Made by a program: the position numbers and the translations under genes. The notes beneath the pieces were generated by a model. The model had not been told where the DNA came from and did no database searches. It saw only the letters and a program-made list of their open reading frames with translations. A stretch of 36,193 nt of DNA from a bacterium (GTDB taxonomy: Bacteria > Vulcanimicrobiota > Vulcanimicrobiia > Vulcanimicrobiales > Vulcanimicrobiaceae): NCBI GenBank assembly GCA_028869385.1, contig JAGWSR010000059.1:1-36193 (forward strand). The letters run 5' to 3'. Shown here piece by piece: positions 1,339 through 8,077 of the stretch (position 1 is its first letter; each line of letters begins with the position of its first letter).

Positions 1339-1821
1339 TTGTGGAGTAAACGAGAAGCAGTGGAATCTGACCTCGAGGTTGGGGATCGCAATAGCCTCTG
1401 TGGCCTTATTTATACGATCCGCGACTTCGCCGATACGGAGTACCAGCAGCGGGTCTGGGTCCGAGGAGAAGGCCCCGAGGTCTCGGGCTTGGTTGAAGCA
1501 TTGTCTGAGCTCGATCGAATTGATGAATTTGCCGGACCGATAGGGGCCCGCTATGGTCTGCCGCTCAACGCGATAACCGCGTTGCGGGAGTTTGCAGCCA
1601 AAATCAAGGCGTTCGATGCCGGCATCACCTCCTACTATGAGTCGTCCGACGAAGAGATTATCGCCAAGGAAGGTTGGAAGGGCGTTGTCGACACCGCCGC
1701 TCACGCGTTGGACGCGACTCTTCCTTGGTTTGAAGATAACTGCCGAGAGTATCCGACGTTCCGATTTACTTGGCGCGGAAAAGAATACGGAGGCGGGTCG
1801 CCACGGGGACCTTCGGAATGA
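1339..1821 (+). CDS. Island protein resembling the SCO4402 family
   Basis: A 160-aa soluble protein of unknown function. The segment DFADTEYQQRVWV near residue 30 and the later SSDEEII...WKGVVDTAAHAL segment recall SCO4402-type proteins known from Streptomyces, a family whose biochemical role I do not know. No signal peptide or membrane segment is visible. I used the TTG at 1339; GTG at 1360 is an in-frame alternative and neither has a strong ribosome site. The stop overlaps the next gene's start by four bases (ATGA), which implies translational coupling. It is the first gene after the left island end and less GC-rich than chromosomal neighbours. The family link is from memory of the motif pattern only. 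Confidence 0.6.
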   Translation: MWSKREAVESDLEVGDRNSLCGLIYTIRDFADTEYQQRVWVRGEGPEVSGLVEALSELDRIDEFAGPIGARYGLPLNAITALREFAAKIKAFDAGITSYYESSDEEIIAKEGWKGVVDTAAHALDATLPWFEDNCREYPTFRFTWRGKEYGGGSPRGPSE

Positions 1822-2321
1822 GTGCCAATTCGGTCCACGCTTTCGCTGGTGAAGCATTTCTCGCTTTGGCCCAGCGTTACATGAGCTGGCTCCAAATTAG
1901 AGCGGCTACGAGTGTAGGGTCGCTTTCCGACCTGCACGCATGTCTCTCCGATTTGCAAGGCGCTGCGATACGATTACCGCAGATCGGCGGCGACGACGAT
2001 AGCGATGACCAAGACGTTCCTCGTGACGCCCAAACGGGGTGGACACTGGCAAAACAAGCCGCCGCGACATTACCGCTTTGCGAGTATGCCCTGGTGTTCG
2101 ATCCTCTTGATGAAGCGGACAGAAATGCGATCGTTAATGCAATTGAGGATGATCTTGGCGACATTTACAACGATCTCGCCGAAGGCGCTTCGTTAATGGC
2201 GAACGCTCGAATCGAAGACGCCATTTGGCAATGGCGTTTCTCGTATCTCAGCCATTGGGGCAGGCACGCTGTCCATGCGCAAACTGCACTTTGGCAGGCG
2301 TTAGCGAACGCGCTCGAATAG
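1818..2321 (+). CDS. DUF5063 domain protein
   Basis: A 167-aa protein. Residues ~95-165 carry the DUF5063 pattern: a FDPLDEADRN segment, an acidic DDLGDIYNDLAEG helix and the C-terminal WQWRFSYLSHWGRHAVHA block. The function of this family is unknown to me. The ATG at 1818 overlaps the upstream stop (ATGA), and the next gene follows 12 bases downstream, so three genes form a cassette. There are no membrane segments. I chose ATG 1818 over an upstream in-frame codon at 1770 because the coupled overlap makes sense and the protein then starts at a natural N-terminus. Confidence 0.75.
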   Translation: MSANSVHAFAGEAFLALAQRYMSWLQIRAATSVGSLSDLHACLSDLQGAAIRLPQIGGDDDSDDQDVPRDAQTGWTLAKQAAATLPLCEYALVFDPLDEADRNAIVNAIEDDLGDIYNDLAEGASLMANARIEDAIWQWRFSYLSHWGRHAVHAQTALWQALANALE

Positions 2322-2333
2322 GAACTGTCTACA

Positions 2334-2615
2334 ATGTCGAAGGCCGACCGCTTGGCGAAGCGCGAGCAAGAAGTATCTGGAATGATGGCGCTGTTTGAAA
2401 AGCGGCTGCGCGAAAAACTGCAGGCTTGCGCAAGCGGTCGCTGGGTGTTGTTTGGTCAAAACGATGCGGTCAGCGGAAATCTTTTGGCGGGCACCGACTC
2501 GGGTCGAAAATTGCTCACTCTCGCAGGCGATATCGACGACGCGCGCCGAGAACTGGGATATTCCGAACCCTTCACGCTTGCCGAGCGCTTTCGCGCATAT
2601 CGGGGTAGAGAGTAG
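2334..2615 (+). CDS. Hypothetical 93-aa protein of the DUF5063 cassette
   Basis: A small charged protein with an N-terminal helix (KREQEVSGMMALFEKRLREK), then GRWVLFGQNDAVSG, a helical GDIDDARRELGY segment and a basic end. The start is ATG with an AGGAA-type ribosome site about ten bases upstream. It lies 12 bp after the DUF5063 gene in the same direction, so it is probably co-transcribed and may be its partner. I do not recognise a characterised family. A toxin-antitoxin or immunity-like small partner is conceivable, but no catalytic motif is visible. Confidence 0.6.
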   Translation: MSKADRLAKREQEVSGMMALFEKRLREKLQACASGRWVLFGQNDAVSGNLLAGTDSGRKLLTLAGDIDDARRELGYSEPFTLAERFRAYRGRE

Positions 2616-2697
2616 CGCGGCGGACCGTATAGGTATTAAGTCCCGCCTCCAAGGGGCGCTGCCGCGGTGGTTTAACTTGGAGCAAGCGGAGGCGGAT

Positions 2698-2757
2698 ATG
2701 CACGTAATTCTTGCGTTTTTGAACTGCTCGCGGGTGATCGCCGCACCGTCGGCTTGA
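2698..2757 (+). CDS. Possible 19-aa leader ORF coupled to the 630-aa gene
   Basis: An ATG at 2698 follows a GGAGG ribosome site spaced five bases away, stronger than any site directly before the large gene. The 19-codon frame ends at TGA 2755-2757, overlapping the TTG start of the next gene at 2754 (TTGA). Such an arrangement would feed ribosomes into the large gene by translational coupling. The peptide itself (MHVILAFLNC...) has no recognisable role. Its translation is inference. Confidence 0.35.
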   Translation: MHVILAFLNCSRVIAAPSA

Positions 2758-4646
2758 CGGAATGCATTACGGTGACGCCCGAATCTCTTGAGCAAATACG
2801 GAACCAGCTCTTAGAGGCCTCCGAAAGCGAATTTGTAGGGGCGGTGAATGACGCTTTGACGGCGTTTTACGGCCCGATCGCTTTTGCTTCGAAAACGATC
2901 GAGGACTCAGCCGGCGCAACGGTGTCGCTGGAGTCCGTTGCTTACCCGGCTGAGACCGAACCCTTAGCGAGCGGTGCGATTCCAGCAGATGCTGTAGCGA
3001 TTGCTAACATCGTCTGCGATTCACTTGATTTGCCCTCTCTGCGGCTCGCCTTTGGAAAGCTTCGCCAAGTTAAGCGCCTCGCAAAAACACCCTCCTCAAA
3101 TACCGCCAAGACCGTGGAAACCCTGACTGCGGTAATCGCTAAGTCATCAGCAGTTACGCTGGATGCCGTTGCTCAGGAGATTCGGGCTTTGAATCGTACG
3201 GCCCCGGACAGTGAGCGCCTTGATATGGTTGTCGTGCTCTCGCAAGGCGTGGTCGACTACAAGATGCGATTCTTCGGCGATGATCAAGTAAACATGATGT
3301 TGCCGCCGTCTCGAGTTCGCGAAGACGTTGTTCCGGTGCTTGTGTACCTTGCCGTCGACGGCAATCCATCCAATAGTGTGAAAAGCCTCGCTTTTGTTTC
3401 CGCGGCACAGTGTCGGTGCTTCTACCCTGAGATTGCTTTTCCGGACGTTCGAGGCATCGTCCCCAGTGGTCATGTTGCCCTTATCGCCACGTACCAATAC
3501 GACCTCAGCAATGTGTTGCGAGAAGTCGATGCAATAGCCCCGCCGCTGTCACCTTTTAGCGTTGTTGCCAATGACGGGACTCAGCTTCTCGAACTTTGGC
3601 TTCAGCCTTGGCAGCAGGGGAGCGTGATTGTTGCGAAAGGTCAGATGCCTTTACTTGGACTGCTCGTACCTTCTGGTCTCAATATCTCAAAGCGGGTATT
3701 TCAGACGTCCAATGGGTTTCAACTGTCGAGTGCGACGCCACTCGATGCTGCGGGGTTCTCACAAGCCATGGTTCGTGTCGCTAAGCGCAGCCGCGGGATA
3801 TCGATACGTAAATCGCAGCAGAGCTTTACCCTCGCGAAGCTTCTCGACGAGGGCACTACGACGCCGTTTGTTGCACGAATTTCTATGACGCCGCTAACGA
3901 TTCGCGATATCGTACTGAACGATAAAGGGCTCGTAAAAAAATTTGACGACCGATTTCAGCCCATACTGAATGGTCTCATACGCGCGCGATCCAACGCGAA
4001 GGAGATCGAAGCGCTTTGGAACGAGCATGAAGCCGCCGTTGCAAGTGGACGCATCGCACACGTCGATAATGCGATTCACGTGGACGTCGCATTTGACGGT
4101 AACTTCAACGATAAGGTTGACGGTCTTATCGCGGAACTCGCACGCACGTTGAAAAAGTTCCAGAAGGTAGCGAAGATCTTTGGGATCGACATTGGGTTCT
4201 TTTTCCAGAATGAGCCCCAGTTTCAGAAGGGCCTTGCGGCTTTGCGTTCAGTTGACCCTGAACTCGCGGATTATCTGCAAGCCGCGCGCCCTTGGGCGCA
4301 AGACCTTCGGCTTTTTAGGGACGACCTTGAGCACGGAACGTACGTTCACCCTATGATCCAGTACAGCCGCACTGCTTCGAACGGCGTTGAGGCACACGAG
4401 CCACTTATTCTAGGGGTGCCAGTGCGTCAATATTTCGCAACTACCGTCAGCCGTGTCAATCGCTTCATTGAGGAAATCTTAATGTGGTGTTACCAGAGGT
4501 CGATGCCAACCCCAATGATGTTGACTGAGATTCCCCGGGCGAGCCGCGACCCGAATAAACTTGAACGATTCAAAATCGGAGTTGAGGGTCAAGGCGAGAC
4601 GCGCTGGATTATCACTTACTCGGAGGCGCCATTCGACGAAGTGTAA
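2754..4646 (+). CDS. Large island protein, C-terminal HEPN-like motif
   Basis: A 630-aa protein with no family I can name. The N-terminal ~130 residues are helical and acidic. The middle (~150-290) has a beta-rich section (DMVVVLSQGVVDYKMRF; VPVLVYLAVDG). The C-terminal third is helical and contains LRLFRDDLEHG, where R522 and H527 form the R-polar-x3-H motif of HEPN ribonucleases. No signal peptide or transmembrane segment is visible, so it is likely cytosolic. The TTG start at 2754 overlaps the stop of a mini-ORF with a good ribosome site; GTG at 2772 is an alternative. It shares direction with a 682-aa protein that has the same motif. A role in phage defence is inference. A structural HEPN-like fold without RNase activity is also possible. 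Confidence 0.72.
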   Translation: MTECITVTPESLEQIRNQLLEASESEFVGAVNDALTAFYGPIAFASKTIEDSAGATVSLESVAYPAETEPLASGAIPADAVAIANIVCDSLDLPSLRLAFGKLRQVKRLAKTPSSNTAKTVETLTAVIAKSSAVTLDAVAQEIRALNRTAPDSERLDMVVVLSQGVVDYKMRFFGDDQVNMMLPPSRVREDVVPVLVYLAVDGNPSNSVKSLAFVSAAQCRCFYPEIAFPDVRGIVPSGHVALIATYQYDLSNVLREVDAIAPPLSPFSVVANDGTQLLELWLQPWQQGSVIVAKGQMPLLGLLVPSGLNISKRVFQTSNGFQLSSATPLDAAGFSQAMVRVAKRSRGISIRKSQQSFTLAKLLDEGTTTPFVARISMTPLTIRDIVLNDKGLVKKFDDRFQPILNGLIRARSNAKEIEALWNEHEAAVASGRIAHVDNAIHVDVAFDGNFNDKVDGLIAELARTLKKFQKVAKIFGIDIGFFFQNEPQFQKGLAALRSVDPELADYLQAARPWAQDLRLFRDDLEHGTYVHPMIQYSRTASNGVEAHEPLILGVPVRQYFATTVSRVNRFIEEILMWCYQRSMPTPMMLTEIPRASRDPNKLERFKIGVEGQGETRWIITYSEAPFDEV

Positions 4647-4790
4647 TCCATTGGGCTCAGGGAGTTTCGCCCGTCCGTAGTAAACGGTTTGTGGATTGCT
4701 TCGCGGTGTCGTGGTTTTGTTGGACGTCAATCGCTTCCCGGGCGCCTCGACAACTGAAACTGTTCGCGGTCATTTAGTAAAGGCGATACT

Positions 4791-6839
4791 ATGGACGATT
4801 CCGCCAAAACTCTTGAGATTAATGGCCATCGCATCGCACCAGGCGAACTCGCGTTCATGTATCGGCCGGAACATGGTGATTTTCTATTTGGAAATATTGA
4901 GGACGTTGTTGGCGGCAACGCAGTGGTTTCGTTTGAAAAGGATTCCTGGGAGCGTCGAGACCCGGCGATTTTCGTTTCGCTAGCAGACGTTCACGTTGCC
5001 CAAGATGTCAATGCGCGAGTTCCGGGAGCGGGTTACCGATACACGGCGAAGGAGTGGGTGTTTAAGCGCACTGGTGTTATGACCGCCGAACCGTTGGTGG
5101 TTCTTGCATCACAAGAGGCAGTGGGCGATCCACTGCTCGTCGTTCCAGTGCGGTTCGCCAATGATAAGTGGGTGGTCGCGGGCGATGCCTGCGCGGTTGC
5201 TACGGGCGACATCTTCCATCCGATGACGCTCTGCGTAATACAGCGCTATAGATTCTGTTCCCCGGTCCATCCGCTCTTTGACATTGTACGTCAGCCCGTT
5301 GGCTTATCAATGGATGCGGAATTGCCATGTGTTCTGCATTTGGACGGCATCGACATCCCGGTAAGGAATCAAATGGTCGTCCGTGGCCATGAGATTTCGT
5401 ATCACCTAACCGCGCATTATACGCTCGTTTCGCTCTTGGGAAACCTTGCGGGGAGGAGGCTACTTGAGGAGCGCCTCGCTCCGATCGGTGAGGTAACGCC
5501 TCGCTGGTCGGCGACCGTTGCTTCTACCGGTGTATCGACAAATTTTTCTGGCGGGGACTTCAATGGTAGTATTTCCGTCATCCCCCGTTCTCTTGAGGCA
5601 ACGTTTGCCGACGAACCCGTCGTAGCAACGGCGGAGATTTATACGGGTGCTCCGATGGAGGCCTGGTCTTCGCGCGTGTCATATCGCGAGGAGCCAATAA
5701 ATATGGCTCTCATTGCGATAAACTACGGGCCCATTCCGAACGCGACCCAGTTTGAGTGCTTTGGAAAACATGTGATCATTACAAAAGCGCATAGGCACGG
5801 GGGAGTGGACGTCGATTACCTTTCCGTCATTAGGATAGGGGAGCCGCTGAGCAAGAACGACCATGCGGTGCTGAGCGCATTCATCGGATATATTACCGGA
5901 GGCCGCGCTGCGAATGTCCTTACCGAGACATACGCGCACAACAGGAAGCTTCGAACGGTAATTCATGATAGGGCCGAGCCCACGGTGCGTAAGCAGCCGC
6001 CCGTTCCAATCGTGAGGCCTTGGTTGTATTCACGGCTCATCACTAACAGCTTTGCGAAAGTACTCGACAGCTTCAAAAGCTGGCGTGAGACTGATGAGCG
6101 GTCGTTCGAAGCCTTGTTCCATCACTATTCTGAAGGTGCGGAGTCAAGCTACCCGGTCACAAAAACGCTAAAGCTTGCTGTTGCGTTCGAGGCTTTCGTA
6201 AACCTGGTGACCTTGGATAATGCGGTAAACGAGAAGATTGTAGATAATAATGACGACTACAATGCGTTGAAAGCCGAGCTTAGTGAGACCCTTAGAGAGT
6301 ATGCCTCCAATCATAGACGGGCTATATCCGAAACGGCGGAGGAACGCTTTCATCAAAAATTTGACGAAGGTTTCAATCTTGGGTCCAATACTAAGCGAAT
6401 TAATAAATTTTGGGAATTGGTTCCAATTGTCGTCTCGAAAAAAGATAAGAAACGCATTCACAACCTTCGGAACGATGTCGTCCACCGCGGGTTCATCGGA
6501 AAGGCGAATGAAGAACAGGACGTATTGAAGGAGCTGAAGGCGGCAAATCGTTTGTGCGATATTTTGAATCGCGCAATCCTTCACTATGCGGGTTATACGG
6601 GGCCAGTGCTTTCTGCGGAGACGGGACAGTGGATTGAGGCTGTCAGCGGAGAGCTGTATCACGTTCCGGTGATACCGAAAGGACCAACCCTTGAGATAAA
6701 ACAGGAGACTAGCCTTCCTCCGTTTTCATCCGAAGAACAGGCGGCCGTCGATGCACTCAGGGCACTGAACGGGGAATCTGCGAAAATCGAACTTTACATC
6801 GAGGACCCGGAAGCCCAATTTCCGGCCGACGTGCCATAA
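4791..6839 (+). CDS. Large island protein with C-terminal HEPN-like domain
   Basis: A 682-aa protein of unknown function. Residues ~1-410 appear beta-rich and resemble no family I know. Residues ~420-600 are helical (TKTLKLAVAFEAFVNLVTL) and contain IHNLRNDVVHRG, with R560-N-x3-H565 matching the HEPN active-site motif seen in ApeA-type and other defence RNases. The C-terminal ~60 residues are low-complexity and acidic. There is no signal peptide. The ATG at 4791 follows an AAAGG site eight bases away. It is separated by 144 bp from the upstream 630-aa gene and ends directly in a 19-bp perfect terminator. ApeA-like Apea_HEPN is the closest idea, but N-terminal similarity was not established. 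Confidence 0.75.
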   Translation: MDDSAKTLEINGHRIAPGELAFMYRPEHGDFLFGNIEDVVGGNAVVSFEKDSWERRDPAIFVSLADVHVAQDVNARVPGAGYRYTAKEWVFKRTGVMTAEPLVVLASQEAVGDPLLVVPVRFANDKWVVAGDACAVATGDIFHPMTLCVIQRYRFCSPVHPLFDIVRQPVGLSMDAELPCVLHLDGIDIPVRNQMVVRGHEISYHLTAHYTLVSLLGNLAGRRLLEERLAPIGEVTPRWSATVASTGVSTNFSGGDFNGSISVIPRSLEATFADEPVVATAEIYTGAPMEAWSSRVSYREEPINMALIAINYGPIPNATQFECFGKHVIITKAHRHGGVDVDYLSVIRIGEPLSKNDHAVLSAFIGYITGGRAANVLTETYAHNRKLRTVIHDRAEPTVRKQPPVPIVRPWLYSRLITNSFAKVLDSFKSWRETDERSFEALFHHYSEGAESSYPVTKTLKLAVAFEAFVNLVTLDNAVNEKIVDNNDDYNALKAELSETLREYASNHRRAISETAEERFHQKFDEGFNLGSNTKRINKFWELVPIVVSKKDKKRIHNLRNDVVHRGFIGKANEEQDVLKELKAANRLCDILNRAILHYAGYTGPVLSAETGQWIEAVSGELYHVPVIPKGPTLEIKQETSLPPFSSEEQAAVDALRALNGESAKIELYIEDPEAQFPADVP

Positions 6840-6882
6840 GAGAAAGAGCGCCTGGGCAAACTCGCCCAGGCGCTCTTTCTCT
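6839..6882 (+). terminator. 19-bp perfect intrinsic terminator of the island cargo
   Basis: Arms 6839-6857 and 6864-6882 are perfectly complementary over 19 bp with a 6-base loop (AAACTC). The descending arm ends in CTTTCTCT, giving a pyrimidine tail, while the ascending arm gives the matching purines on the other strand. The hairpin therefore may work in both directions. It starts at the last base of the 682-aa gene's stop codon. Confidence 0.85.
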
Positions 6883-7002: not shown

Positions 7003-7898
7003 ATACATCATATTCGACCGCGTACTCAAGTTCGTCTGACCAGGGGACCAGGGTTACATATTGCCTTGGCGCGGCTGTCCCCTCACGATATCGTTGAAGC
7101 GTACAGGCTGATCCGAGAGAAGGGTCTTTCGGCTCGAACGTGCCTCCACGTTCACCGGGCGGTCCATACGGCTCTTCAATGCGGCGTGAGAACGCTCAGG
7201 TGGCTAAGAGAGAACCCGGCCGCCGGCGTTAAGGCACCGAAGGTCCCGAAGCGGGTTTGTCACATCGACGCCGCGGTAATCTCGGCTGTAATCGAACTGA
7301 GTGTCGGAACACGGCTTGAAGTGCCCGTTTCAGTGACGGCAACGTCCGGCGTTCGCCGAGGTGAACTTCTGGCTTTGCGTTGGTCGACGAGCGTGGATTT
7401 CGAGAGAAGAAGCGCCTCGTTATCTCCGAGTCGCTGGAGGAAACTGTTTTATTTGGCTTGCGTTTCAAGGCGCCGAAGTCTGGCCAGGTGCGCGTTATCC
7501 CGATCGCTGACTCCGTGATTCCGTTGCTACGCGATCATCAAGCGCGCCAGAAGCTCAAACGAAACGCGCTCGGAGCTGGCTACCAAGACAACGATCTGGT
7601 TTTTTGCAACCCCGATGGAACGCCGTGGGCTCCGAATACATTTACCAAAGACTTTGCGAGTCTCGTGAAGCAGGTAGGTGCCAAGGGGTTTCGATTCCAC
7701 GACCTGCGTCACGGATTTGCAACACTTACGCTGAACAACGGTACGCCCGTGAAGGAGGTCTCTACTCTTCTCGGCCACTCGACCGAAACGGTTACACTCT
7801 CTACTTATGCTCACTTGGTCGAGGGAGTAGCCCGCGATGCCATTAACGGGCTAGCTGGCCAACTGCTTCCGGCCAAAAAAGGGACCTCAGTCGCGTGA
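7003..7898 (+). pseudogene. int: Tyrosine integrase, 5'-truncated and frameshifted
   Basis: The first frame (7003-~7405) gives the end of the core-binding domain (LARLSPHDIVEAYRLIREKG) and the start of the catalytic domain, with the first Arg in SGVRRGELLALRW. Near 7405, in a GAGAGAAGAAG run, the sense passes to another frame that continues KKRLVISESLEE... This fits loss of one base. It then carries HDLRHG (H-x-x-R), LLGHST and the tyrosine in STYAHL, so all catalytic residues survive across the two frames. An in-frame TAG at 7000 precedes the homology, and the arm-binding N-terminus is missing. The gene abuts the right arm repeats and tRNA-Ser, the normal place for such an integrase. A sequencing error could explain the frameshift but not the missing N-terminus. 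Confidence 0.82.
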
Positions 7899-7987: not shown

Positions 7988-8077
7988 GGAGAGGTGGCAG
8001 AGCGGTTTAATGCAGCGGTCTTGAAAACCGCAGAACCTTTGCGGGTTCCGTGGGTTCGAATCCCACCCTCTCCTCCA
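7988..8077 (+). tRNA. tRNA-Ser(UGA)
   Basis: Acceptor GGAGAGG pairs with CCTCTCC. The anticodon stem GCGGT/ACCGC encloses CTTGAAA with anticodon TGA. A long class II variable arm (GAACC/GGTTC) and a T arm (GTGGG TTCGAAT CCCAC) follow, and CCA is encoded at 8075-8077. The discriminator base is T, where G is common for bacterial tRNA-Ser. The 5' half, as well as any promoter just upstream, comes from the inserted element, whereas the 3' half is the original chromosomal part. A 39-bp copy of the 5' half remains at 1137-1175. Confidence 0.95.

Follow-up and report, generated by a model that had tools for sequence, protein, structure and literature searches.

A tRNA-Ser-integrated island of an Eremiobacterota genome carries a candidate HEPN-type effector and a second, possibly HEPN-type, protein

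Two large neighbouring genes on a small genomic island, encoding proteins hereafter called P1 and P2, raise the question of whether their products are HEPN-type RNases and whether they act together as a new defence system, as a first-pass annotation had proposed from an R-polar-x3-H motif found near each C-terminus. The window, i.e. the whole stretch of DNA analysed (36,193 nucleotides), is one contig of a 3.1-Mb genome of Eremiobacterota, a small phylum. Both ORFs are present as described, and their coordinates are collected with those of the other features of the island in Table 1.

The claim that the island had been inserted at a tRNA gene is borne out by an intact tRNA-Ser(TGA), a pair of 39-bp repeats and a drop in GC content. 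The repeats, 97% identical with one mismatch (0 such pairs expected), bound an island of 6.8 kb, within which GC content is 54.4% vs 67.4% outside. Their position indicates that the insertion point is the anticodon loop and that the element lies 5' of the tRNA, to which it seems to bring a substitute 5' half, differing by one base from the half that it displaced. All likely genes between the repeats are on the forward strand, and the last is a decayed tyrosine integrase, whose matches to phrog_1 are split between two frames (positions 207-312 and 321-449). Because this integrase is frameshifted and truncated at its N-terminus, the island has probably lost its own mobility and is stranded at the tRNA gene.

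Table 1. Features of the island and its integration site, in positions of the window.
Feature	Position	Strand	Evidence
attL-like repeat, tRNA-Ser 5' half copied as far as the anticodon loop	1137..1175	+	38/39 identity to 7988-8026
Cargo ORF, 160 aa, weakly SCO4402-like	1339..1821	+	NCBIfam NF047838 E=5e-8, 33.1 bits, under 50-bit cut-off
DUF5063 ORF, 183 aa as listed	1770..2321	+	PF16702 E=6e-19, above cut-off, residues 28-178
Cargo ORF, 93 aa, function unassigned	2334..2615	+	ORF list
P1, 630 aa, possible HEPN-type C-terminal domain, TTG start uncertain	2754..4646	+	ORF list, homologue, profiles
P1 R522-H527 (RDDLEH) codons	4317..4334	+	sequence; L009 homologue has RNSLEH
P2, 682 aa, ATG start, HEPN-type C-terminal domain (about 400-610)	4791..6839	+	family alignment, profiles
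P2 R560-H565 (RNDVVH) codons	6468..6485	+	R/H invariant in 11/11 family members
Hairpin directly 3' of P2, probably intrinsic terminator	6839..6882	+	perfect 19-bp stem, -40.7 kcal/mol, z = -8.7
Decayed tyrosine integrase, without N-terminal part, frameshift near 7375-7400	7066..7898	+	phrog_1, PF00589, three-frame reading
attR-like repeat, 5' half of tRNA-Ser	7988..8026	+	38/39 identity to 1137-1175
tRNA-Ser(TGA), intact, integration target	7988..8077	+	ARAGORN

The cargo comprises five ORFs: the SCO4402-like and DUF5063 ORFs, the 93-aa ORF, P1 and P2. The DUF5063 ORF probably starts at the ATG at 1818, overlapping the stop of the preceding ORF, and the 93-aa ORF has no family above cut-off in Pfam, PADLOC, NCBIfam or PHROGs. 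The same four collections hold no model that matches P1 or P2 above cut-off, in agreement with the earlier statement that their N-terminal domains are not recognisable; in P2 the region left unrecognised by family models spans about 400 aa. By eye only, a degenerate restriction-endonuclease-like domain was considered for P1 residues about 40-110, and it is not claimed here. The strong terminator said to close the pair corresponds to the hairpin in Table 1, for which a terminator role is probable; a T-run terminator scan did not include it among its listed sites.

The published HEPN signature is Rx4-6H with a polar residue after the arginine, located at the end of helix 3 of the domain (PMC3710099). 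The motifs lie where the first-pass annotation had placed them (R522-DDLE-H527 in P1, R560-NDVV-H565 in P2), and each is the single match to R[NDH]x3H in its protein. The bare motif decides nothing by itself in either protein, since composition-shuffled sequences contain such a motif in 4.4% (P1) and 17% (P2) of cases; among the proteins encoded near P2 relatives, pooled together with the relatives themselves, it occurs about 0.3 times per 650 aa.

In P2 the motif becomes strong evidence because it is invariant throughout a divergent family. Protein and profile searches within the phylum, covering up to 148 genomes, yielded ten relatives (L002 to L006, L017 to L020 and L094), mostly 16-25% identical to P2, with L020 being a C-terminal fragment only. 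In the alignment of these with P2, R560, H565 and G567 are the same in 11/11 proteins, the residue following the arginine is N, D or H, and between positions 526 and 613 full invariance extends to just one more residue, G604; R560-N-x3-H565 thus agrees with the HEPN signature. A further match, to P2 153-238 (L007, genome G095), was discarded, being antisense to a glycyl-tRNA-synthetase-like ORF.

Profile comparison points in the same direction. The one Pfam hint for P2, HEPN_RiboL-PSP, falls below cut-off (E=0.037), and a profile of the P2 domain, compared by hhalign with a HEPN_RiboL-PSP profile built from four proteins of the same phylum, scored 25.2, with a maximum of 19.7 among 300 column shuffles and 14.0 for the reversed-profile control; the alignment pairs RN-x3-H with RN-x3-H. 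Accepted HEPN families compared likewise gave 21.1, 34.8 and 23.7; the last, for Abi_C vs DUF4145, is close to the score of the P2 domain. The similarity of the P2 profile to Abi_C and DUF4145 is weak, being reached by 1/100 and 5/100 shuffles. Profile searches against PDB sequences found no HEPN, and an AlphaFold model of the P2 domain from single-sequence input is of low confidence (mean pLDDT 42), with the motif at a helix end. On family conservation and profile similarity, the HEPN nature of P2 is well supported, and P2 is a good candidate for a HEPN RNase effector.

The first-pass annotation had made the HEPN claim for both proteins. It is well supported for P2, with R-[NDH]-x3-H-x-G invariant in 11 divergent members and a significant HEPN_RiboL-PSP profile match, whereas for P1 the evidence is no more than suggestive. 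P1 has one full-length homologue (L009/L011), 38% identical and encoded in a genome of the same family as that of the window, which keeps R522, L525, E526 and H527 and has a polar residue after the arginine, as P1 does. A pattern-based scan of GTDB contigs, which reaches near relatives only, recovered no relative of P1 beyond this one. In genome G096 the P1 C-terminus is present as a remnant of 40 aa, ~0.25 kb behind tRNA-Leu(CAG), and it is followed there by another HEPN-like ORF (ELRNSFAHLP; L010, 1170-2320). The scores of the P1 profile against HEPN families are marginal, being reached by 6/300, 3/100 and 15/100 shuffles; the first two comparisons align motif to motif. P1 and P2 profiles show no similarity to each other beyond that of shuffles (54/300 reach the score). 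An AlphaFold model of P1 385-630 is of low confidence (mean pLDDT 53), and its best PDB match does not improve on E 0.33; the Foldseek matches of this model were discarded as meaningless. In the profile searches against PDB sequences, the C-terminus of P1 matched Alba proteins weakly, which was judged to be due to chance.

These results leave a substantial, if lesser, probability that P2 is a HEPN effector and P1 is not, RDDLEH being a chance occurrence or an unrelated conserved motif. The frequency of the motif in P1 shuffles, the single full-length homologue, the marginal profile support and the lack of a fold match would all fit such a reading. It accounts less well for the retention of R, LE and H at 38% identity, for the two HEPN families that align motif to motif with P1, and for the place of the motif before the last long helix of the weak model, in agreement with the published position at the end of helix 3 (PMC3710099). 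A second HEPN protein in P1 is best described as plausible.

Whether the two genes form one system is a separate matter, on which gene distribution bears directly. An obligatory two-protein defence system, e.g. of two HEPN subunits or of a sensor and an effector, would be in keeping with the arrangement of P1 and P2 on the same strand, with a 144-bp gap and a hairpin only behind P2. Full-length P1 is found, however, in 2/149 genomes, with the remnant in a third, and P2-family genes occur in nine genomes, none adjoining a P1 outside the window. On the 4-kb contig L009, the P1 homologue stands instead directly behind a gene for a 243-aa protein. The first-pass annotation had suggested looking for homologues that co-occur in other islands; within the phylum none was found, the one homologue of P1 and the ten relatives of P2 never occurring together, and the idea of a new two-protein system is not upheld. 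A joint system is unsupported because relatives of P1 and P2 are never together outside the window, and we regard an obligatory pair as improbable; their presence on the same island is a single observation, such as would be expected of independent cargo. Equally improbable is the broader proposal that P1 and P2 represent two new, unrelated HEPN sensor-effector families with undescribed N-terminal sensors, which act jointly or as mutual back-up in a new Eremiobacterota anti-phage system.

The defence-type setting that had been suggested for the island finds support, for the P2 family, in the neighbours of several relatives. Genome G087 has two P2-family loci. At L043, genes for a DUF4062 protein and a ThsA-like STALD/SIR2 protein lie near the P2 relative; at L044 (9051-15186), a 142-aa C-terminal fragment of the family stands next to a gene for a helical-REase protein and Thoeris genes for ThsA and two ThsB. 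STALD was found in just 3/148 genomes; of its four genes, two are ~3 kb from P2-family genes. At L109 (G020, 2552-5356), a 469-aa relative lies immediately downstream of a Cas1 gene, at a distance of 36 bp (match to Cas1 structures with E 3.5e-19), and the 16 kb read there contain no CRISPR array. The contig of another relative (L041, G005) also carries an integrase gene and a DNA methylase fused to a Mrr-type restriction endonuclease (1185-2942). In G093 an Abi_C protein is encoded 2.4 kb upstream of the relative and tRNA-Glu/Gln lies 0.5 kb downstream, and in G092 tRNA-Val lies 0.4 kb downstream; tRNA genes are within 0.5 kb of P2 relatives at L038 and L039. Pooled neighbours of P2 relatives (78 proteins) matched 102 PADLOC models, compared with 36 for 75 proteins elsewhere in the same genomes, a rough control because a single protein can match many models. 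Four relatives (L040, L042, L045 and L046) have no obvious defence neighbour. A defence setting of the P2 family, with Thoeris, cas1, restriction-modification, Abi_C, integrases and tRNA genes, is thus supported. Searches with P1, P2 and their relatives in plasmid, phage and IMG/VR sequences returned nothing convincing.

HEPN domains are found in toxin-antitoxin pairs too, and on a small tRNA-borne element the proteins might serve the element itself, by addiction or by competing with other elements, and not in defence against phages. We consider this unlikely: no small antitoxin-like partner lies beside P2, sizeable N-terminal regions are more typical of sensor-effectors, and several P2 relatives are near anti-phage genes, with one (L045) alone between high-GC genes.

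Overall, the explanation that we consider probable, with some reserve, is a stranded tRNA-Ser element whose cargo includes two independent genes of HEPN-effector type, with P2 as a single-protein sensor-effector and P1 probably of similar design. On the model of ApeA and other HEPN effectors, the N-terminal region of P2 would sense infection and switch on the C-terminal HEPN domain, in which R560 and H565 would cut RNA without a metal. Such cleavage would be expected to stop phage production by making the infected cell dormant or killing it, following an ApeA-like logic. P1 may work likewise, with a HEPN domain that is more diverged or modified. P2 would accordingly belong to an unannotated family of candidate HEPN-type defence proteins whose general kind is already known. 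No Pfam, PADLOC, NCBIfam or PHROGs model recognises this family, although several Eremiobacterota genomes carry it. It would provide a HEPN effector family open to testing in a phylum about whose immunity little has been described, and the N-terminal region of P2 would offer a novel candidate for phage sensing.

Among known systems, Abi_C (PF14355) and DUF4145 (PF13643) are HEPN-type domains, and an Abi_C gene accompanies one P2 relative, but their profile similarity to P2 and P1 is weak or absent. HEPN_RiboL-PSP (PF18735) is closer to P2, as its best Pfam hint and through the significant profile match centred on RNxxxH; its members in the phylum, however, are short proteins of 157-226 aa beside DUF262-like genes, while P2 is a protein of 682 aa that lacks a neighbour of this kind. 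In four Eremiobacterota genomes (L022, L023, L024 and L025), HEPN_RiboL-PSP proteins are encoded directly behind the DUF262-like genes. ApeA has an N-terminal domain of about 300 aa that is mostly beta and poorly conserved (PMC3710099). P2 is not filed as ApeA, because neither P2 nor its relatives match the HEPN_Apea model (PF18739; ApeA-NTD1) or a PADLOC ApeA model; in plan, nevertheless, the two are alike, each being a large single protein with a long unrecognised N-terminus and a C-terminal HEPN domain, in P2 a putative one, bearing Rx4H.
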